Shown: positions 1,881 to 34,708 of the stretch, piece after piece
Numbering within the stretch: position 1 is the first letter of the stretch
How the letters are laid out: the number at the start of each line of letters is the position of its first letter
From: a virus
IMG/VR virus record: IMGVR_UViG_3300042945_001694
Coordinates: 1 to 34,708 of that record
Reading direction: 5' to 3' (one strand)
DNA: 34,708 bases
Made by a program: the position numbers and the translations under genes
Notes under the pieces: model-generated
What the model saw: the letters and a program-made list of their open reading frames with translations, nothing else
Database searches by the model: none
Told to the model about the DNA's origin: nothing

Positions 1881-2127
1881 TCTAAAAAGAATAAGTAGTA
1901 TTATGACAGATGCATTATCGGCAACGGAATGTTTTTTTTATAATTCTTCCGTTTATAGAGAATTTTTGGAAGAAAGAGAAGAAGTATTAAAACATAAGTG
2001 GTTGGAAAGTGAAAAAAAAGGATATGATATTGGTTACAGTGCTGCTCTAATCGATTGGATTATAAAATATAGAAGACAGTGGAGAAACCATAGAAAAAAT
2101 AAATTGTGTAAATATACATATGGTTAA
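1873..2127 (+). CDS. Hypothetical phage protein
   Basis: An 84-residue protein that overlaps the end of the phosphoesterase by 8 bases. The start at 1873 follows a purine-rich GGGGG stretch about 8 bases upstream; an in-frame ATG at 1852 would add seven residues but has no such site. The core, SEKKGYDIGYSAALIDWIIK, followed by a basic WRNHRK tail, resembles short phage orphans with a conserved GYDIG..AL.DWI pattern. No catalytic motif, signal peptide or membrane span is visible. It ends inside the start region of the first PATR protein (8-base overlap). Confidence 0.65.
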   Translation: MFNLKRISSIMTDALSATECFFYNSSVYREFLEEREEVLKHKWLESEKKGYDIGYSAALIDWIIKYRRQWRNHRKNKLCKYTYG

Positions 2128-3703
2128 AATATACGGAAAATCTCAAATATTCGCTAAGGCATTTTTTGTTCCTGTTCCTATTACGAGTATACCGCAATTA
2201 CCAACTACCATTATTTGGACAGGATTAGGTTCTAGTGATATTTGGAGTATTTCTTCCAACTGGAACACAAGACCACCACAAGCTTATGAAAGCTTCCAAT
2301 TTGCAGGAACTACAAGATTAACACCATTTAATAATCTAACAATAGATACACCTTTTAATGGAATAACCTTTAATTCTGGATCGGGAGCATTTACATTAAA
2401 CGGAAATAGATTTGTTTTAAATTCTGGTAGTATATCAAATAGTTCTATCAACATACAAACCATTAATAACGATATCGTTTTAGGTTCAAATGCAGGAACA
2501 ATAAATTGTGCTACTTCTTCTATTTTTCTTAATGGTAATATAAGTGGTTCTGGTAATTTAACAAAACTCGGAGCATCTACTTTATCATTAAGTGGTAATA
2601 ATACATATACTGGAAATACATATATAAGTGCGGGTATAATCGATATTTTAAACAGTAATCCATTTGGAACTGGTAGTGTTTACCTTTCAGGTCAATCTGG
2701 TGCATTAATCAGAATACCAACAACGGCAGCATCAACAAATACAATTATTAATAATCCAATTAATTTAAATGGCCAAAAAGTGGAAGGTGGTGTTTCTATT
2801 AGAGTAGATAAATCTGCAACATTTAATGGTTTATTAACACTTGGACCCGAAAATTTAACCAATAACATTTACATAGATAATAATGCTACTTTAACATTCA
2901 ATGGTGGCATTTCTGCATTTCCTACGATGGGAAGATTATTTAGAATACTAGGTAATTCAGGATCAGCTAAAACAGGAACGCTGGTTTTAAGTTCTGACCC
3001 TATTATTTTTGATAATACAGCAAGCTCTGGTATATATGCTGATCGAGCTTCGGTTAATGTGGTCGTAGCAGTATCAGGTAATAAATTTACTGCCATAAGA
3101 TTAGGAACTACTTTAAGAACAGATGTTCCATTAGCTATTAACAACGATATCCTAACATTAGGATTTCCTCGTCTTGGCAGCTTGCTGCTGCCTGGTATAG
3201 TTGACTTGAACGGAAACGATCAAATCGTTAATCGTTTAAATATTACAACGGGAACACCGTTTAATGATGTATTAAAAAATAATATTTTTAATAATTCTTC
3301 AACATTTGCTAATTTATCATTAAATAATACCGGTGGTAATTCAACATACACTGGAAGTATTTCTGGTAATATCAACCTTAATAAAATAGGATCCCAAACA
3401 TTAACTCTTTCTGGTAGTACAGCTTTAGGTATTGGACCAAGATACACAGGATTCACTGCAATATCTGCTGGAACTCTCATAAATTATGCATTGTCTTCCA
3501 ATCCTTCCAATAAAGTAAATTTTGCTCAATTTTCTAGAACCGCTTTGACAGTTAATTTTACAACTCCTCCAATTGTGGGTGATTCTTTTATTTTATTACC
3601 AGCAAGAACTGTTAATTTATATCCATCAGTAACATTACAAAATGGTGGTAGTAGAACAGCATCTTATAATTCTTCAACCTCAACTTTATCAATAATTACA
3701 TAA
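2120..3703 (+). CDS. Autotransporter-associated beta-strand repeat (PATR) protein, copy 1
   Basis: A 527-residue protein rich in Ser, Thr, Asn and Gly. It starts with a passenger-type lead-in (IIWTGLGSSDIWSISSNWN, then FAGTTRLTPFNNLTIDTPF) and carries PATR-like units such as ISGSGNLTKLGASTLSLSGN followed by NTYTGNTYISAG, and again INLNKIGSQTLTLSGSTALG. Such units normally build a right-handed beta-helix on bacterial surfaces. Here there is no signal peptide and no autotransporter barrel, so a virion fibre or decoration protein is more likely than secretion. It is a clear paralogue of the minus-strand gene at 7591-9144, with near-identical C-terminal ends (NYALSSNPSNK, VGDSFILLPART). It overlaps the preceding gene by 8 bases. 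TGTAAATA at 2107-2114 is one base off the late octamer. Confidence 0.8.
   Translation: MVKIYGKSQIFAKAFFVPVPITSIPQLPTTIIWTGLGSSDIWSISSNWNTRPPQAYESFQFAGTTRLTPFNNLTIDTPFNGITFNSGSGAFTLNGNRFVLNSGSISNSSINIQTINNDIVLGSNAGTINCATSSIFLNGNISGSGNLTKLGASTLSLSGNNTYTGNTYISAGIIDILNSNPFGTGSVYLSGQSGALIRIPTTAASTNTIINNPINLNGQKVEGGVSIRVDKSATFNGLLTLGPENLTNNIYIDNNATLTFNGGISAFPTMGRLFRILGNSGSAKTGTLVLSSDPIIFDNTASSGIYADRASVNVVVAVSGNKFTAIRLGTTLRTDVPLAINNDILTLGFPRLGSLLLPGIVDLNGNDQIVNRLNITTGTPFNDVLKNNIFNNSSTFANLSLNNTGGNSTYTGSISGNINLNKIGSQTLTLSGSTALGIGPRYTGFTAISAGTLINYALSSNPSNKVNFAQFSRTALTVNFTTPPIVGDSFILLPARTVNLYPSVTLQNGGSRTASYNSSTSTLSIIT
2415..2538 (+). repeat. 124-bp perfect inverted repeat, arm 1 (inside PATR copy 1)
   Basis: Read base by base, 2415-2538 is identical to the reverse complement of 8732-8855. 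Flanking sequence diverges immediately on both sides. The arm encodes about 41 residues near position 100-140 of both PATR proteins. Because the two copies are inverted, homologous recombination between them would invert the intervening 6.2 kb. Confidence 0.95.
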
Positions 3704-5305: not shown

Positions 5306-5581
5306 ATGTATTTTAATTTTACAATAAGGAACTTTTGCAAACCGAGAAAAGAGTTTAAAAAATATTTTTCATTTTATAAACAACTTTCCAAATATAAAAA
5401 TGTAGAATTCGAAATATTTTATTCGGGAGATAACATTTTTCAATTTGAATTAGATTTTGCTCCAATTACAAGAGATCATGGTGGTTTGGGTATAAATTTA
5501 AATTTTTTGGGGTTTGAAGCTGGTTTTAGAATTTACGACTCCAGACATTGGGATTATAAAAATTGGTGTTGGGAAGAATAG
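5306..5581 (+). CDS. Conserved small phage protein (RDHGGL...YDSRHWDY type)
   Basis: A 91-residue protein ending RIYDSRHWDYKNWCWEE, preceded by APITRDHGGLGINLNFLGFE. This end pattern (RDH.GL....G....F..YD.RHWDY....W.) belongs to a widespread family of small phage orphans. It contains beta-strand-like hydrophobic stretches but no catalytic motif that I know. It is the last gene of a four-gene plus-strand run and converges on the homing endonuclease, with only 6 bases between the stops. Confidence 0.78.
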   Translation: MYFNFTIRNFCKPRKEFKKYFSFYKQLSKYKNVEFEIFYSGDNIFQFELDFAPITRDHGGLGINLNFLGFEAGFRIYDSRHWDYKNWCWEE

Positions 5582-5587
5582 TAATAT

Positions 5588-6361
5588 TTAAATTATACCT
5601 TTTATTTTTAATGAATTTAAATGTTTTTTATAATTTCCCGCATTGAAACATTTATTACAATGTTTACACTCAGTAGTAAGTGTTTTGGCTTTTTCTGATA
5701 TTTTTTTTCTAACATCTTTGTTTTTAGCGGGATTTAAATCGCCATTCATTTCTGGTCTTAATCTACCTTTACCAGTAGTTCCGTTTTTTAATTTTGTTTC
5801 TTTTGATTTTAACACCGCGATTTGTATCTGTTCTGGAGTTTTTTTGATATTTGCTATTTTATGTGATTCTGACATTTTTAATAATGTTTCTTTTGTATAT
5901 TTTCTACCTAAACATCGTTTATGTCCTTTAGCTGCTTCTGATAATTTTCTTTTCGTTTCTTCTGTATGTTTTTTTCCGAAAAAGTGATTATTAGGCCCAC
6001 TAATTGTTTTCCTAAATTCTTCACTTCTTATCACACCGCATGGACCCGTTCCCCCATCACATCTATTTCTTAAAATTCCTGTATCATTATCAATTCTACC
6101 CCACCAATTTATTAGTCTTCTTTCTAATGCGAATGCTCCTAACTCTGTTAAATTGTTTTCTAAAATTACTATATATTTTTTATTCGGCATATGTACAGAG
6201 GTATGTTTCCCTTTTCTGTCATTAGTCCATGCTCTTCTACCGCTACCTTTGCCTATATAATATGGTGTTCCAGCCTTGGCAATTTTAGAATTTTTTTCAC
6301 GTATATATGCGTATACGTAAAACCTTAAAGGGTTATTATTGTTTTTCATAGTTTGTCGCAT
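5588..6361 (-). CDS. GIY-YIG homing endonuclease with NUMOD3 repeats
   Basis: A 257-residue free-standing homing endonuclease. The GIY-YIG core has YVYAYI (15-20) and YYIGKG (34-39) as the two signature triads, R42/R43, and Glu80 in ALERRLINWWGRI as the likely metal ligand. DNA-binding NUMOD3-like units follow: GPNNHFFGKKHTEETKRKLS (122-141), then GRKYTKETLLKMSESHK and a weaker third unit near 207-226. The C-terminus has a small zinc-finger-like C232-x2-C235...H247. It lies opposite to its neighbours, as expected of an inserted selfish gene. The start may be Met1 (6361) or Met5 (6349). A hairpin upstream would mask GGTGGAG, its best Shine-Dalgarno. Confidence 0.9.
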   Translation of the reverse strand: MRQTMKNNNNPLRFYVYAYIREKNSKIAKAGTPYYIGKGSGRRAWTNDRKGKHTSVHMPNKKYIVILENNLTELGAFALERRLINWWGRIDNDTGILRNRCDGGTGPCGVIRSEEFRKTISGPNNHFFGKKHTEETKRKLSEAAKGHKRCLGRKYTKETLLKMSESHKIANIKKTPEQIQIAVLKSKETKLKNGTTGKGRLRPEMNGDLNPAKNKDVRKKISEKAKTLTTECKHCNKCFNAGNYKKHLNSLKIKGII

Positions 6362-6403
6362 AAATATTTATCTCCACCGTGTTACTTTTTCATAGTTGTC
6401 GCA
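6342..6403. repeat. Imperfect direct repeat over the start of the GIY-YIG gene
   Basis: TTTTTCATAGTTTGTCGCA at 6342-6360 recurs as TTTTTCATAGTTGTCGCA (one T fewer) at 6386-6403, offset 44 bases. The first copy covers codons 1-6 of the endonuclease; the second lies in the loop of the upstream hairpin. It looks like a short tandem duplication of the gene start. Confidence 0.85.
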
Positions 6404-6430
6404 AACTTTTATTTTTAACACGGTGGAGAT
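6370..6430 (-). promoter_or_regulatory. Hairpin masking the ribosome-binding site of the GIY-YIG gene
   Basis: ATCTCCACCGTGTTA (6370-6384) is the exact reverse complement of TAACACGGTGGAGAT (6416-6430): a perfect 15-bp stem with a 31-base loop. On the minus-strand mRNA the start-proximal arm contains GGTGGAG, 10 bases before the ATG, so a transcript that includes both arms would hide it. GATAAATA (one base off TATAAATA) runs from this arm towards the ATG. On the plus strand the stem is followed by six T, so it could also act as a terminator before the 6438 promoter. Confidence 0.7.
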
Positions 6431-6437
6431 TTTTTTA

Positions 6438-6465
6438 TTGACATTTCTATAAAATATATTAATAT
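6438..6465 (+). promoter_or_regulatory. Sigma70-like promoter before gene at 6474
   Basis: TTGACA at 6438-6443, a 16-base spacer, then TAATAT at 6460-6465, 8 bases before the ATG at 6474. It follows directly on the hairpin and T-run at 6416-6437. Confidence 0.65.
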
Positions 6466-6473
6466 TGGTTTAT

Positions 6474-6983
6474 ATGAATCATGAATTAGAACTAAAATTA
6501 TACAATAAATACCCCAAAATTTTAAAAGACTGTGGGAAAAGTCCCATGGAATCTTGTATGGCGTTTTGGATTGAAACAGAGGATGGCTGGTATAATCTTC
6601 TGGATAAATGTATGGAAAAATTGCAATACTTCTGCGATCTTTGTTCAAAGAATGGTGAAGAGGTACAAGTTGTTGCTAACCAAATTAAAGAAAAGTACAG
6701 CACCCTCCGTTTTTACGTAAGTGTCTATGGTGCAAATAGTATTGAAAATGATATTATAGATGACATTATTAATCAAGCAGAAGCAGAGTCCGCTAGAACA
6801 TGTGAAGTGTCAGGAAAATATGGTGAATCTTGCAAACGAGGTGGTTGGTATAAAACTCTCTGTTACGAAGAAGCAAGAAAGCTAGGATATGTAGCTTGTA
6901 ACGAATCAACCGAAGCTTACTGGAAAGAAAAAGACGCAAAAGGAGAAAAAAATGACGACCACGAAGAACTTGGAACAACTTGA
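6474..6983 (+). CDS. Conserved phage protein with Cys-rich C-terminal motif
   Basis: A 169-residue member of a common phage/bacterial orphan family: the N-terminus ELKLYNKYPKILKD, then AFWIETEDGWYNLLDKCMEK, VVANQIKEKYSTLRFYVSVY and a terminal TCEVSGKYGE...GWYKTLCYEEARK. In many relatives the last part is a CxxCG...WxxTLCxxC zinc-ribbon; here the second Cys is Ser (CEVS) and the last Cys is Tyr, so metal binding may be lost. The ATG at 6474 fits the promoter; the TTG at 6465 would lie inside the -10 box. The last 32 bases overlap the next gene. Function unknown. Confidence 0.82.
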   Translation: MNHELELKLYNKYPKILKDCGKSPMESCMAFWIETEDGWYNLLDKCMEKLQYFCDLCSKNGEEVQVVANQIKEKYSTLRFYVSVYGANSIENDIIDDIINQAEAESARTCEVSGKYGESCKRGGWYKTLCYEEARKLGYVACNESTEAYWKEKDAKGEKNDDHEELGTT

Positions 6984-7590: not shown

Positions 7591-9144
7591 TTATGTAATT
7601 ACCGATAAAGTTGATGATGTCGAATTATAAGATGCTGTTCTACCAGAAGCATTTTGTAATGTTACTGCTGGATAAGAGTTAATAGTTCTTGCTGGTAGTA
7701 AGATGAAAGAATCACCAACAATTGGAGGAGTTGTAAAGTCAACAGTTAAAGTAGTGTTAGTAAATCTTGCAAAATTTGCCTTATTGGAAGGATTAGAAGA
7801 TAAAGCATAGTTTGTCAATGTACCATCAGATATAGCAGTAAACCCTGTATATCTTGGTCCAACACCTAAAGCTGTACTACCAGAAAGAGTTAATGTACCA
7901 GTTCCAGTTTTAATTAAATTAATATTACCAGAAATACTTCCAACGTATGTTGTATTGGAAGTATTATTTGCTGTTAAGTTTGCAAATGTTGAAGAATTAT
8001 TAAAAATATTATTACCAGAAATATCAGCAAACGTAAGTGGAGCAGAAGCATGTTGTATATTTCTAAAAACTTGATTATTTCCGTTTAAATTTATTCTTCC
8101 GAATCTAGGAATCGTAGATCTTGCAAAACCTAAACGAACAATATCATTATTAATAGCAAATGGAACATTAGTTATTAAATTGCTTCCTGTAGAAATATCG
8201 TTAAATTTGTTACCTGAAACTGCTATGATTAAAGTTTCAAATCCTGAATCTAAATAAATTGGTCTAGCACCTGAATTATCAAAAATAATAGGAACAGAAC
8301 TAAGAATAAAAGTTCCAACACCACTCATTACTGTGATATTGTTCATTGTTGGACCTCCAGACATACCGCCATTAATTGTCATGGTTGCATAGTTTCCAAT
8401 ACCTATTCTATTTACTCTATTATTAGGGCCAACAGTAATTAGACCATTAAATGTTGCAGATTTTGATACTCGAATATTAGCTAAATTACCTGGTCTTTCG
8501 CCATCTATAAAAATTGGATTATTAATAATTGTATTTGTTGGTGCAGAGATATCTGATATTAGCAACCCACCGTATTGACCTGAAACATAAACACTTCCAG
8601 TTCCAAATGGATTATTATTTAAAACGGAAACTACACCCGAATTTATATATGTATTTCCAGTATAAGAATTATTACCACTCAACGCTAAAGTAGGCGTTCC
8701 GATTTTTATTAGTGAACCAGAACCACTTATCTTACCATTAAGAAAAATAGAAGAAGTAGCACAATTTATTGTTCCTGCATTTGAACCTAAAACGATATCG
8801 TTATTAATGGTTTGTATGTTGATAGAACTATTTGATATACTACCAGAATTTAAAATAAATCTATTTCCGTTCAACTGAAAAGCTATTGCTCCAGCATTAA
8901 ATGATATTCCATTAAAAGGAGTATCGATTGTTAGGTCATTGAACGGAGTCGATCTTGTAGTTCCTGCAAATTGTAATATATCATACGCTTGTGGGATTCT
9001 TATATTCCAGTTAGAAGTTGTGCTCCAATTGTTATTAGTACCCAAACCTGTCCAAATCAAATTTAATGGTATAGGTATAATAAGTATATCATCGAATATA
9101 CTATTACCCAAAAAATTACATTTTCCTTCAATATTTATTAACAT
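7591..9144 (-). CDS. Autotransporter-associated beta-strand repeat (PATR) protein, copy 2
   Basis: A 517-residue paralogue of the protein at 2120-3703, in opposite orientation. It has the same plan: a short unique N-terminus, the lead-in LIWTGLGTNNNWSTTSNWN, FAGTTRSTPFNDLTIDTPF, PATR units (ISGSGSLIKIGTPTLALSGN; INLIKTGTGTLTLSGSTALG) and the terminal domain VGDSFILLPART...STLSVIT. The middle (about residues 170-390) is much more diverged than the ends, as if the exposed part evolves faster. No signal peptide or membrane anchor is seen. A TATAAATA late-type promoter ends 8 bases before its ATG and shares a 15-mer with that of the 1646-residue structural gene, so I infer that this is a late, virion-associated fibre or decoration protein. 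Confidence 0.8.
   Translation of the reverse strand: MLINIEGKCNFLGNSIFDDILIIPIPLNLIWTGLGTNNNWSTTSNWNIRIPQAYDILQFAGTTRSTPFNDLTIDTPFNGISFNAGAIAFQLNGNRFILNSGSISNSSINIQTINNDIVLGSNAGTINCATSSIFLNGKISGSGSLIKIGTPTLALSGNNSYTGNTYINSGVVSVLNNNPFGTGSVYVSGQYGGLLISDISAPTNTIINNPIFIDGERPGNLANIRVSKSATFNGLITVGPNNRVNRIGIGNYATMTINGGMSGGPTMNNITVMSGVGTFILSSVPIIFDNSGARPIYLDSGFETLIIAVSGNKFNDISTGSNLITNVPFAINNDIVRLGFARSTIPRFGRINLNGNNQVFRNIQHASAPLTFADISGNNIFNNSSTFANLTANNTSNTTYVGSISGNINLIKTGTGTLTLSGSTALGVGPRYTGFTAISDGTLTNYALSSNPSNKANFARFTNTTLTVDFTTPPIVGDSFILLPARTINSYPAVTLQNASGRTASYNSTSSTLSVIT
8732..8855 (-). repeat. 124-bp perfect inverted repeat, arm 2 (inside PATR copy 2)
   Basis: The exact reverse complement of 2415-2538. 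The rest of the two genes is similar but not identical, so this block points to recent gene conversion or inversion. Confidence 0.95.
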
Positions 9145-29704: not shown

Positions 29705-32700
29705 TTAAAATTTATTATAATATGCGCTTATACCTCTCTTCAAAGGAATAATTTCATTTGAACTAACATCTTCGTTAATTATCAATATTTCAGTTGAATC
29801 ATATGGTACACCATAAATTTTTCCATTTATTGATAAAACACCAGAAGACCATTTAGTAGATCCGCTCAAATTTTCTCCAAGAGATGTTTTCTGTTGTGTA
29901 TTTGTTATTGGATCTAAAATCAAAATGTCAGTCGAGTCTAAAGGAAACGCATATATTTTACCATTTAATCCTAATGTTCCACCCGACCATTTAGATGTTC
30001 CTAATAAAGCCGAACCATTCATATTGCTTCTTTCTGCTGTATTAGTAACAGAATTTATTATTAATATATCAGTAGAATTATATGGTATACCATAAATTTT
30101 TCCATTAGACGAAACAACACCACCAATCCATTTTGATTGATCTGTTAATGTTGCATTCATGGTATTTGTTGTTGCTGTATCAGAAACAGGATCAATTATT
30201 AAAATACTGGTTGAGTCGTATGGTATTCCATATATTTTGCCGTTTGGTGCTAATGCTCCACCCATCCATTGTGCAGTATTTGTTAATGTTAATCCCATGG
30301 TATTGGTTGTTGCTGTGTTAGAAACAGTATCTATTACCAATATTTGGTTGGAATTGTATGGAATGCAATAAATCTTTCCATTTGGTGCTAAAACACCACC
30401 TACCCATTTTGAAGTTCCTGCTAAATTAGCACCCATCGTTGATGTTGTTGCTGTATCAGTAACAGGATCAATTATTAAAATACTGGTTGCATTGTATGGA
30501 ATTCCATATATCTTGCCATTTGGTGCTAATACACCACCTTGCCAATTATAGGTTCCTGTTATAGACAAACCATAATTTGATCTATTTGATGTATTTTTAA
30601 CGGTGTCTATAACCAATATATCAGGAGAATTTGTTGGCATACAGTAGACTTTACCATTTGGTGCTAAAACACCACCATAAAATTTATCTCCATCATTTAA
30701 AACAGATCCTAAATTGTTTTTTGATGCGGTTTGATTTATTTGTAAATCATAAAAATTATAAATATAATCGTGTGTTTTATCCCAGTCTGCGCTGGTATCT
30801 TTCACCGAAGTATAAACAGAATCCCAGTTTGCGCTAGTATCTTTCACGGAAGTATATACAGAATCCCAATTAGCAGAAGTGTTTAATACACTAGTATATA
30901 CAGAATCCCAGTTTGCGCTAGTATCTTTCACGGAAGTATATACAGAATCCCAATTTGCACTGGTATCTTTCACGGAAGTATATACAGAATCCCAATTTGC
31001 ACTGGTATTTTTTACAGAAGTATAAACCGAATCCCAATTTGCGCTTGTATCTTTTACAGAAGTGAATGTAGAATTCCAATTTGCGGATGTATTCGAAACT
31101 GAAGTATAAACCGAATCCCAATTAGCAGATGTATTTAAAACTGAAGTATAAACCGAATCCCAATTTGCGCTTGTATCTTTTACAGAAGTGAATGTAGAAT
31201 TCCAATTTGCGGATGTATTCGAAACTGAAGTATAAACCGAATCCCAATTTGCAGATGTATTTAAAACTGAAGTATAAACCGAATCCCAATTTGCGCTCGT
31301 ATTTTTTACAGAAGTGAATGTAGAATCCCAATTTGCACTTGTGTTTTTAACTGAAGTAAATGTAGAATCCCAATTTGCAGATGTATTTAAAACTGAAGTA
31401 TAAACCGAATCCCAATTTGCGCTCGTATTTTTTACAGATGTATAAACAGAATCCCAGTTAGCGGATGTGTTTAATACGGAACTATAAACCGAATCCCAAT
31501 TTGCAGATGTGTTTTTAACTGAAGTAAACGTAGAATCCCAGTTAGCGGATGTGTTTAATACGGAACTATAAACCGAATCCCAATTTGCGCTCGTATTTTT
31601 TACAGAAGTATATACAGAATCCCAGTTTGCGCTTGTATCTTTTACAGAAGTGAATGTAGAATTCCATTCTGATGAATTTCCAGACTTATCATATATTGTA
31701 TCATTTGAACTAACCGAACCATTTATTGTTAAAGAGGTATTCGGTGTATCTGTATTGATTCCAACGTATCCATTATTTTTTAATATTAAAATAGTGTTTC
31801 CATCATCTATAAATTTAGCAATATCAGCATTTCCATTTTGTGTTACTGATAATGCTGGTCCTACTCCAGTGTTTATTATATTTAAAGCACTAGTAGTACT
31901 AATTATTGTTTCTATTAAAGTAGAATTACCCAAAATAGATAAATCTCCTGTTATTCTCAAATCTCCACTTATTTCTCCTCCAGTTAAAGGAAGAAAATTA
32001 TTTTGAACAAAATTTATAGTTGAATATGTAGCACTATTTTTATTATACGTAGAATAAACAGAATCCCAGTTAGCAGAAGTGTTTAAAACAGAACTAAAAA
32101 CAGAATCCCAATTAGCACTGGTATTTTTTACAGAAGTAAATGTAGAATCCCAATTTGAACTCGTATCTTTTACCGAAGTATAAACCGAATCCCAATTAGC
32201 AGAAGTATTTAAAACAGAGCTATAAACGGAATCCCAATTACCACTAGTATCTTTTACTGAAGTATAAACACTGTCCCAATTAGCAGAAGTGTTTAATACA
32301 CTAGTATATACAGAATTCCAGTTTGCGCTGGTATCTTTTACAGAAGTATAAACAGAATCCCAATTAGCAGAAGTGTTTAAAACAGAACTAAAAACAGAAT
32401 CCCAGTTAGCAGAAGTTTTTAAAACGGAATTAAATACAGAATCCCAGTTAGCAGAAGTTTTTAAAACGGAATTAAATACGGAATCCCAATTAGCAGAAGT
32501 GTTTAAAACGGAATTAAATACAGAATCCCAGTTAGCACTCGTATTTTTTACAGAAGTAAATGAAGAATCCCAGTTAGCAGAAGTTTTTAAAACGGAATTA
32601 AATACAGAATCCCAATTTGCACTTAAATTTTTTAAATCGGTTCCTTGATAAGAATATTTGAGAAAATTTTCTACTAAAATTTTCTTTGTATATCCTGCAT

Positions 32701-32776
32701 TAACTACTGGTAAAACATCAATGGAAGGATTTATATTAGTAGTTTCAATTAATTGAGAAATTGTCAAATTTGCCAT
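29705..32776 (-). CDS. Giant tail fibre: 14-residue repeats plus seven-unit propeller tip
   Basis: A 1023-residue fibre. The N-terminus (NLTISQLIETTNINPSIDVL, PVVNAGYTKKILVENFL) matches the attachment end of phage fibres. Block 1 has 14 copies of SANWDSVFNSVLKT-like units (about residues 54-250); a FLPLTGGEISG module and a sugar-binding-like insert follow (250-365); block 2 has about 21 units (366-665). The C-terminus (about 690-1015) has seven repeats of about 46 residues, each GGVLAPNGKIYGIPY...ILIIDPV, which fits a seven-bladed beta-propeller. A chaperone domain is not seen. TATAAATA boxes lie just upstream. Likely the main receptor-binding fibre, by architecture. Confidence 0.85.
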   Translation of the reverse strand: MANLTISQLIETTNINPSIDVLPVVNAGYTKKILVENFLKYSYQGTDLKNLSANWDSVFNSVLKTSANWDSSFTSVKNTSANWDSVFNSVLNTSANWDSVFNSVLKTSANWDSVFNSVLKTSANWDSVFSSVLNTSANWDSVYTSVKDTSANWNSVYTSVLNTSANWDSVYTSVKDTSGNWDSVYSSVLNTSANWDSVYTSVKDTSSNWDSTFTSVKNTSANWDSVFSSVLNTSANWDSVYSTYNKNSATYSTINFVQNNFLPLTGGEISGDLRITGDLSILGNSTLIETIISTTSALNIINTGVGPALSVTQNGNADIAKFIDDGNTILILKNNGYVGINTDTPNTSLTINGSVSSNDTIYDKSGNSSEWNSTFTSVKDTSANWDSVYTSVKNTSANWDSVYSSVLNTSANWDSTFTSVKNTSANWDSVYSSVLNTSANWDSVYTSVKNTSANWDSVYTSVLNTSANWDSTFTSVKNTSANWDSTFTSVKNTSANWDSVYTSVLNTSANWDSVYTSVSNTSANWNSTFTSVKDTSANWDSVYTSVLNTSANWDSVYTSVSNTSANWNSTFTSVKDTSANWDSVYTSVKNTSANWDSVYTSVKDTSANWDSVYTSVKDTSANWDSVYTSVLNTSANWDSVYTSVKDTSANWDSVYTSVKDTSADWDKTHDYIYNFYDLQINQTASKNNLGSVLNDGDKFYGGVLAPNGKVYCMPTNSPDILVIDTVKNTSNRSNYGLSITGTYNWQGGVLAPNGKIYGIPYNATSILIIDPVTDTATTSTMGANLAGTSKWVGGVLAPNGKIYCIPYNSNQILVIDTVSNTATTNTMGLTLTNTAQWMGGALAPNGKIYGIPYDSTSILIIDPVSDTATTNTMNATLTDQSKWIGGVVSSNGKIYGIPYNSTDILIINSVTNTAERSNMNGSALLGTSKWSGGTLGLNGKIYAFPLDSTDILILDPITNTQQKTSLGENLSGSTKWSSGVLSINGKIYGVPYDSTEILIINEDVSSNEIIPLKRGISAYYNKF
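29810..30690 (-). repeat. Seven tandem propeller-blade repeats (about 139 bp each)
   Basis: Seven units of about 46 codons spaced 135-141 bases, at about 30676, 30536, 30397, 30259, 30121, 29981 and 29843 (approximate). The conserved core is (W/F)xGGVLAPNGKIYGIPY; the last three blades are the most diverged (GGVVSSNGK, GGTLGLNGK, SGVLSINGK). Confidence 0.8.
30770..31670 (-). repeat. 42-bp tandem repeats, block 2
   Basis: About 21 full units of 14 codons (SANWDSVYTSVKNT and variants). At 31021-31123 and 31147-31249 about 103 bases are identical with a 126-base offset, so a three-unit segment has been duplicated recently. Confidence 0.9.
32045..32625 (-). repeat. 42-bp tandem repeats, block 1
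   Basis: Fourteen units of 14 codons, mostly SANWDSVFNSVLKT or SANWDSVYTSVKDT. Units near the N-terminal end (32400-32610) are more alike at DNA level than those further in, which suggests recent local expansion. Confidence 0.9.
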
Positions 32777-33204: not shown

Positions 33205-34708
33205 TTATATTGTTTTTTTGATTTTAACACATAAAGCATCATCATCAGTTGGTGGATTTGGATAATATGTAAAGGATAATGATAAAACTATAGTGGAACT
33301 ATTTAAATATGTAACAGTTTTTATATTATTTGTTGGGGTTATATAATCAACGGATATTTCATCATATGGGGGAATGCTAAAACCTGCTATTTTTTGATTA
33401 GATGCTGTTAAAGCATTTAAATAACTATTATTAACTTCTATTAAAGATTCTAAACCGTCTGTGTTAATTTCTAAAGTGTCGGTGTTAATATCAACTTCTA
33501 AAACCTTTGCTGTTAAACTGTGCAATAAACCAATAACTTGATCTTGTTTATCGACTTGAATGCTTGTTAATGATTCTAATAATACTTGAGTTTCATTAAA
33601 TTCTTTTTGTGTAAGAGAAGTTAAAGAGTCTAAAAGTGTTTCTACACCGTCTGTATTAATTTCTAGGTTATCTAGATTGATTTCTAATTCATCAGTATTG
33701 GCTGTTAATTGATGAAGAAGAGTTATTATTTGGTTTTGTTTATCAACCTGTATACCAGTTAAAGAATGACCTAAACCAATTAACTGATCTTGTTTATCGA
33801 CTTGTATTGATGTTAAAGAATGTCCAAGAGAAATCAACTGGTCTTGTTTATCAACCTGTATTGATGTTAAAGAATGTCCAAGAGAAATCAACTGGTCTTG
33901 TTTATCAACCTGTATTGATGTTAAAGAATGACCCAAATCAATAATTTGATCTTGTTTATCGACTTGTATTGATGTTAAAGAATGTCCAAGAGCAATTAAC
34001 TGATCTTGTTTATCAACCTGTATTGATGTTAAAGAATGTAAAAGTTCTTCTAAATCATCTATATTAAATTCTAATTCATCAGTATTGGCTGTTAATTGAT
34101 GAAGAAGAGTTATTATTTGGTTTTGTTTATCAACCTGTATACCAGTTAATGAATGACTTAAAACAATTAACTGATCTTGTTTATCAACCTGTATTGATGT
34201 TAAAGAATGACCTAAACCAATTAACTGATCTTGTTTATCGACTTGTATTGATGTTAAAGAATGTCCAAGAGCAATTAGTTGATCTTGTTTATCTATAATA
34301 ATATCTTTTACTATATTAAGTAATGAATATAACTCATCTTGCTTTGTAGCGGTTGAATAATCCCAACCAATTATTATATTTAAATAATCATTAGTTGCTA
34401 TTATTAAATTTTCCAAATGATCCGTATTAGAATCTATTCTATTTGAAATACTAGTTAAAGAATGACTTAAAGCAATCAACTGATTTTGTTTGTCAACCTG
34501 AATACCAGTTAAAGAATGTAAAAGTCCTTCTAAATCATCAGTATTGATCTCTAATTCATCTGTATTTGCGGTTAATTGATGAAGAAGAGTTATTATTTGG
34601 TTTTGTTTGTCAACCTGAATACCAGTTAAAGAATGACCAAGATTTATTATTTGGTTTTGTTTGTCAACCTGAATACCAGTTAAAGAATGACCTAAACCAA
34701 TTAATTGA
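33205..34708 (-). CDS. Fibre-like protein of 18-residue repeats, 5'-truncated by window edge
   Basis: The minus-strand frame stays open to the end of the window (the TTG at 34479 is internal), so at least 500 C-terminal residues of a larger protein are present. They consist of SLTSIQVDKQDQLIALGH-type units of 18 residues, interrupted by segments such as LTANTDELEINTDDLE, and end in a roughly 60-residue domain (FSIPPYDEISVDYITPTNNI, TVTYLNSSTIVLSLSFTYYP). Leu and Ile in the unit are spaced as in an extended 7+11 coiled coil, which would make a long helical stalk. Its place upstream of the fibre genes suggests a virion stalk or fibre. Confidence 0.78.
   Translation of the reverse strand, partial: QLIGLGHSLTGIQVDKQNQIINLGHSLTGIQVDKQNQIITLLHQLTANTDELEINTDDLEGLLHSLTGIQVDKQNQLIALSHSLTSISNRIDSNTDHLENLIIATNDYLNIIIGWDYSTATKQDELYSLLNIVKDIIIDKQDQLIALGHSLTSIQVDKQDQLIGLGHSLTSIQVDKQDQLIVLSHSLTGIQVDKQNQIITLLHQLTANTDELEFNIDDLEELLHSLTSIQVDKQDQLIALGHSLTSIQVDKQDQIIDLGHSLTSIQVDKQDQLISLGHSLTSIQVDKQDQLISLGHSLTSIQVDKQDQLIGLGHSLTGIQVDKQNQIITLLHQLTANTDELEINLDNLEINTDGVETLLDSLTSLTQKEFNETQVLLESLTSIQVDKQDQVIGLLHSLTAKVLEVDINTDTLEINTDGLESLIEVNNSYLNALTASNQKIAGFSIPPYDEISVDYITPTNNIKTVTYLNSSTIVLSLSFTYYPNPPTDDDALCVKIKKTI
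33510..34708 (-). repeat. 54-bp tandem repeats (LGHSLTSIQVDKQDQLIA units)
   Basis: At least a dozen in-frame copies of an 18-codon unit, interspersed with a second recurring element (QIITLLHQLTANTDELE) seen at about 33700, 34090 and 34570. Several units are nearly identical at DNA level. The array continues past the window end. Confidence 0.88.

Follow-up and report, generated by a model that had tools for sequence, protein, structure and literature searches.

How might a phage control a homing endonuclease gene that lies antisense among its neighbours? The question is raised by a viral stretch of 34,708 nucleotides (IMG/VR record IMGVR_UViG_3300042945_001694, positions 1 to 34,708; hereafter the window), in which a perfect hairpin stands ahead of the start of such a gene. 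Hairpins of this kind have a precedent. For the T4 endonucleases I-TevI, I-TevII, I-TevIII and SegB, and for MobE of phage Aeh1, early transcripts carry a stem that conceals the ribosome-binding site (RBS), which is freed when a late promoter inside the region is used; I-TevI moreover binds an operator similar to its homing site and so represses its own late promoter (PMC2988022, PMC3014915). A preliminary description of the window had proposed that its hairpin works in the same way. We therefore examined the cassette that carries the gene, the hairpin, the late promoter and the translation signals of the group (Table 1).

A mobile endonuclease cassette

The endonuclease gene lies between two genes, A and B. 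The gap between them is 892 nt in the window versus 37-51 nt in the empty alleles, which are the usual state among relatives; at least 18 of these are distinct, and their short gap holds the gene B promoter. The additional DNA comprises the endonuclease gene and the hairpin, so the hairpin arrived with the cassette. Cassette and hairpin are also present in L002 (identical) and in L003 and L004 (86% protein identity). Having many empty and filled alleles at one site makes the cassette boundary unusually clear.

The A-B site is a hot spot for insertions. Seven contigs have a cassette there that is about as long as the window's, and in six of six checked it is a LAGLIDADG-type endonuclease cassette (L086, L092, L106, L110, L112 and L146), the type being assigned from the motif seen by eye in the translation and from a PHROG endonuclease match. 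Small inserts are seen at the site in L073, L107 and L150. In two endonuclease-free phages (L122:3944 and L095:3942), a single hairpin arm with the T run sits beside the B promoter, where it may be a target-site copy or a scar.

Wider searches added little. A relaxed hairpin scan of viral contigs found no further cassettes, the remaining hits being chance matches or a tmRNA-linked endonuclease gene. Single-arm scans with late-promoter or T-run context gave mostly chance matches beyond the window lineage and L122, a GTDB genome scan gave short NUMOD3-like matches only, and a blastn comparison of the region with named phages turned up nothing beyond weak AT-rich matches. In L192 (2105-2700), L193, L195 and L197, a phage tmRNA is directly followed by an endonuclease-like ORF. 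Close to its start this ORF has GTGGAGGC, which is able to pair with GCCTCCACC at the 3' end of the tmRNA or with a second copy of that end close by.

The endonuclease gene and its hairpin

The ORF encodes a homing endonuclease. It matches Pfam NUMOD3 (7.8e-07) and a PHROG homing endonuclease family (4.9e-08), it conserves the invariant GIY-YIG residues, and its dN/dS against L003 is about 0.09. In the cyanophages L313 (S-SRM01), L318 (B23) and L321 (Sf-CH5), GIY-YIG endonuclease genes bear the annotation translation initiation factor 2, a wrong label that has apparently been passed on from record to record.

Ahead of the gene, in minus-strand order, ATCTCCACCGTGTTA (6430-6416) pairs with TAACACGGTGGAGAT (6384-6370) at 15 of 15 positions across a 31-nt loop, and GGTGGAG (6378-6372) lies inside the 3' arm, ten bases ahead of the ATG at 6361. 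The minus-strand fold has an energy of -33.1 kcal/mol (z -6.3), and none of 200 shuffles was as low; the plus-strand fold has -26.8 kcal/mol (z -7.7). This is the sole perfect inverted repeat in the window with arms of at least 12 and a loop of at most 60, and no perfect repeat with an arm of at least 13 and at least six G/C arose in 200 first-order Markov sequences. The stem is far above chance expectation. An Rfam search of 6250-6550 returned no match to a curated RNA family up to E=1.

The loop repeats the gene start in degenerate form (GCGACAA-CTATGAAAAA versus GCGACAAACTATGAAAAA), including an exact 12-nt direct repeat (6342-6353 and 6386-6397). The preliminary description had named the enzyme as GIY-YIG, the perfect 15-bp stem with GGTGGAG ten bases before the ATG, and the gene-start copy in the loop. 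All of these are borne out, and the RNA folding that it proposed as a check agrees with the stem. The loop copy also forms a mini-ORF of three codons, ATG AAA AAG TAA (window 6382-6393), which is kept in L003; the 3' arm begins with its stop codon.

Table 1. Features of the endonuclease locus and of the R1 leader found in related genes
Feature	Position	Strand	Basis or remark
Flanking gene A, no function assigned	5306..5581	(+)	ORF and relatives
Mobile cassette, about 855 bp, lacking in empty alleles	5582..6436		A-B gap of 892 nt set against empty-allele gaps of 37-38 nt
Free-standing GIY-YIG/NUMOD3 homing endonuclease ORF	5588..6361	(-)	Annotated start ATG 6361, likely ATG 6349
Predicted late transcription start (6359) and 10-nt leader to ATG 6349	6349..6359	(-)	Predicted from T4 geometry and spacing statistics
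Late promoter octamer GATAAATA	6372..6365	(-)	Enrichment before ATGs; also before the LAGLIDADG endonuclease at the A-B site
Hairpin 3' arm	6370..6384	(-)	Contains GGTGGAG; the late octamer begins within its last three bases
Hairpin loop	6385..6415	(-)	Degenerate promoter/start copy; 31/31 aligned bases same in L003
Hairpin 5' arm	6416..6430	(-)	Alone in the endonuclease-free phages L122 and L095
Run of seven T, terminator-like, right after the stem	6430..6436	(+)	Sequence
Gene B promoter (TTGACA, 16 nt, TAATAT)	6438..6465	(+)	Kept in nearly all empty alleles with the same neighbour pair
Flanking gene B, no function assigned	6474..6983	(+)	ORF and relatives
R1 leader, 56 nt	L266:2923-2979, L207:2922-2978, L201:2941-2996, about 60 others		Predicted mRNA 5' end
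R1 leader	L003:6541-6606; W02 86004-86058; W08 56143-56205		GIY-YIG and HNH endonuclease types

Late promoter and translation signals

Which part of this region would a late transcript contain? In 275 kb of relatives plus the window, 10 of 20 copies of GATAAATA lie 3-24 nt ahead of an ATG (0.24 expected), as do 18 of 60 copies of TATAAATA (0.71 expected). Judged by this enrichment, GATAAATA is a genuine late promoter here, and the phage lineage is T4-like to judge by the T4-type Gp23 encoded by a 203-kb relative. TATAAATA is found upstream of the window minus-strand genes starting at 9144, 26591 and 32776. Late structural genes at 29705-32776 and 33205-34479 are made of many near-identical short repeats (SANWDSVYTSVKNT; LTSIQVDKQDQLIGLGHS).

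T4 late promoters carry their octamer at -13 to -6. The distance from octamer end to ATG is usually 6-10 nt in the window genes and a G001 contig, and the late mRNAs of the group look near-leaderless, with transcription probably beginning on the start codon or a few bases upstream of it. The first ATG of the endonuclease gene (6361) is 3 nt past the octamer, versus 5 nt or more in every other late-promoter gene of the set. Because it is closer to the octamer than in any other gene, the second ATG (6349) is the likelier start and probably the true one. A transcript starting at 6359, as predicted, would lose the first ATG and therefore use the second. Since the 3' arm shares its last three bases with the octamer, the late mRNA would by T4 rules exclude both the stem and GGTGGAG.

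These phages hardly use Shine-Dalgarno (SD) sequences. GGAG, AGGA or GAGG occurs 4-20 nt upstream of 29 of 249 genes versus 16-18 in control windows, and near -3 the upstream regions of the group's genes are enriched in A and depleted in G. The same pattern upstream of starts has been described for Bacteroidota (PMC3155529; PMC6847099). The translation signals of the phages appear Bacteroidota-like, which may point to a host from that group. Low SD usage makes a buried ribosome-binding site in the classical sense unlikely.

Three claims of the preliminary description meet different ends here. Its late octamer is indeed near the ATG and enriched there, but rather than following the 3' arm it overlaps it. 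The idea that the late promoter skips a hairpin arm agrees with a predicted late mRNA that lacks the hairpin. The central claim, a buried RBS that is later exposed as in I-TevI, finds no support as worded, given the scant SD enrichment and a predicted late start past GGTGGAG.

The start codons themselves may be occluded instead. On a long RNA of the window, the flanks are predicted to pair as well, lengthening the hairpin to about 32 bp so that it covers both ATGs; 2 of 500 flank shuffles were as stable. Predicted accessibility of the two ATGs is 0.34 and 0.23 on this RNA versus 0.72 on the late RNA, the value for the second being at the low extreme of 71 control ORFs. The start region on the long RNA of L003 is near average (0.43 and 0.42 versus a median of 0.48), and flank pairing over the start codons is predicted to be weak in that lineage.

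Conservation of the stem

Between the window and L003, the region 6362-6430 differs by one substitution, which breaks a pair at the stem base, and one indel. The loop is as conserved as the stem, more than a plain stem would require. Compensatory stem changes, which the preliminary description had thought worth seeking in relatives, are absent from the two lineages compared. High conservation would fit a DNA-sequence constraint equally well as RNA structure. Against L003, dS is 0.22 in the first 20 codons, 0.7-1.5 in the middle and 0.12 in the last 77 codons. The cassette thus appears mosaic, and recent exchange is possible because its ends are generally more similar than its middle.

More distant relatives lack the window hairpin and have a different leader instead. 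We compared 75 distinct endonuclease starts. In most of them a late-type octamer precedes a leader, here called R1, that consists of a hairpin of two helices in which CRC and TCTA are conserved, followed by a stretch with an SD sequence and by CAGC where the start codon lies. Over 29 sequences, ten pairs of this strongly covarying leader show 96.5% standard pairs and 79 double changes, and none of 500 shuffles reached as high a covariation. The R1 model has 64 distinct copies, including one in L003; a copy stands ahead of an HNH endonuclease on that contig, and others occur in Variovorax phage V45v66 and Pseudoalteromonas phage vB_Psh_XG4. In 35 of the 64, R1 follows at exactly four bases from the end of the octamer, or of a shorter TAAATA match, which would put the start of the first helix on the predicted +1.

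No Rfam family covers R1 in seven loci searched up to E=1, nor in twelve loci at the gathering cut-off, and we found no description of it in the open-access literature. A sub-threshold ROSE_3 match in L241 lies away from R1. R1 appears to be a separate, undescribed RNA element and is possibly a new RNA family. We rejected the window hairpin as a relic of R1, the match not being credible (4.3 bits, E 0.14 over 221 bases).

Discussion

We propose that the region is the late-promoter control region of a mobile endonuclease cassette and that its hairpin silences longer sense RNA, restricting the endonuclease to late expression. We give this reading a probability of about 0.38. The gene would be transcribed from its own late promoter, with a start beyond the stem, and the working late mRNA would have a short leader, no hairpin and no dependence on SD sequences. 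On a longer sense transcript, the flank-extended stem would fold over the start codons and keep the gene silent, and the endonuclease would then be produced late only. The proposal builds on the cassette, the hairpin, the enrichment of the late promoter, the low SD use and the occlusion predicted in the window lineage; it postulates the transcription start, the longer sense RNA and the silencing. Retention of the stem in a lineage with a mid-gene dS of 0.7-1.5 and the T4 and Aeh1 precedents favour it; the broken pair and the near-average start accessibility in L003, the lack of compensatory change and the conserved loop count against it.

Since the hairpin is off the late mRNA, silencing is possible only on read-through RNA. 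Where would such RNA come from? The gene is antisense to the plus-strand block around it; a source of sense read-through is therefore hard to see, and the silenced RNA is uncertain. Only one minus-strand gene (7591-9144) lies close by on the upstream side; a late promoter of its own drives it, and L003 lacks it at this place. A search of the locus showed no early promoter on the minus strand that is conserved, and there is no clear candidate for an early sense transcript that the hairpin could silence. As such a promoter we discarded a -10-like TATAAT at 6497 within gene B, which is not kept in L003. The LAGLIDADG endonuclease at the A-B site also speaks against the lock: it has GATAAATA five bases ahead of its ATG, and its cassette folds into no hairpin (z 0.3-1.2). 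The 7591-9144 protein, in which PATR autotransporter-type repeats were detected, is a paralogue of the one encoded in the opposite orientation at 2120-3703 (+).

A DNA binding site and a plus-strand terminator are serious rivals to the lock. The arms may be putative protein-binding sites, one an operator on the late promoter and start that serves autorepression, the other on the homing-site side at the gene B promoter, with the hairpin as a by-product. The 3' arm overlaps the late octamer, and the identical 15-bp site adjoins the conserved B promoter, where it occurs alone in L122 and L095. The likeness of the two copies reaches past the arms (TTTAT..GACA..CTAT; flank pairing 2/500), the start-region motif is repeated in the loop, and the loop or spacer is conserved as much as the stem; similarity of operator and homing site is established for I-TevI (PMC2988022). 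However, the arm is missing from most empty alleles and is therefore not a general target, the spacing inside the extended similarity differs by 2-3 bp, and L122 may be the scar of a lost cassette, its other end resembling the LAGLIDADG cassette junction. On balance we hold this explanation to be doubtful. The hairpin could also be an intrinsic terminator for plus-strand transcripts that run from gene A through the antisense endonuclease gene, ending them just before the B promoter. Like such terminators it has a G+C-containing stem followed directly by plus-strand T, a run retained in L003 (six T); only two window hairpins pass a stem-plus-T filter, and gene A and its neighbours are transcribed toward this one. 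Its 31-nt loop is long, though, when the terminator-like hairpins of a relative have loops of 5-12 nt and the filter maximum is 12. The T run remains in one-arm alleles that have no hairpin, and empty alleles do without a terminator between A and B, which leaves termination unlikely.

The palindrome may have no regulatory role at all, being a scar left at the hot spot by template switching or an inverted duplication, with its near identity between lineages due to recent exchange of cassette ends. The site does host several cassette types and small inserts, the cassette is mosaic (dS 0.22, up to 1.5, and 0.12), one-arm alleles are found and the promoter/start region is duplicated; but the noncoding control region 6362-6430 is more alike than the adjoining codons, and we regard a mere scar as quite unlikely. 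Least probable, in our judgement, is a double role in which the same inverted repeat would be both DNA operator and RNA lock on the start codons of a near-leaderless late mRNA that does without SD pairing. The control region would then hold several copies of the sequence that the enzyme recognises, one of them in common with the early promoter beside the insertion.

How does the lock compare with known systems? Like I-TevI, the window gene belongs to the GIY-YIG family and has a stable hairpin upstream of its start; its late promoter likewise leaves out the 5' arm, and the site overlapping the promoter resembles another nearby site. I-TevI, I-TevII and I-TevIII, however, are intron-encoded and in sense with early or middle transcripts, whereas the window gene is free-standing and antisense. 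The late mRNA of I-TevI keeps an SD sequence about 8 nt before the AUG (PMC2988022), whereas in the window the SD-like sequence precedes the predicted late start. Free-standing phage endonuclease genes with a late promoter and a hairpin where translation begins are also known from T4 (segB) and Aeromonas phage Aeh1 (mobE), but their RBS is used, unlike what is predicted for the window, and MobE is an HNH enzyme whose gene sits inside one for ribonucleotide reductase. In seg43(25) of Aeromonas phage 25, too, a very stable hairpin lies upstream of the endonuclease start; its stem ends before the RBS and causes no sequestration (PMC2988022), whereas the SD-like bases of the window are inside the stem.

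A late transcript that keeps a usable RBS, a feature of the I-TevI/SegB/MobE class, is thus not what the predicted start site yields here. We regard the window element as a variant that may work like this class, rather than as a proven member, and that would hide the start region. Of the T4-style control first suggested for it, the endonuclease, the late promoter and the predicted absence of the hairpin from the late mRNA hold up; RBS exposure is not supported, and an early sense transcript is not evident.

If the arms bind protein, the locus would offer a natural example, beyond the T-even phages, of an operator that doubles as a homing site. Should the lock work, control by a hairpin that permits late expression only would reach to T4-like phages that hardly use Shine-Dalgarno sequences, and what is hidden would be the start codons rather than a ribosome-binding sequence.
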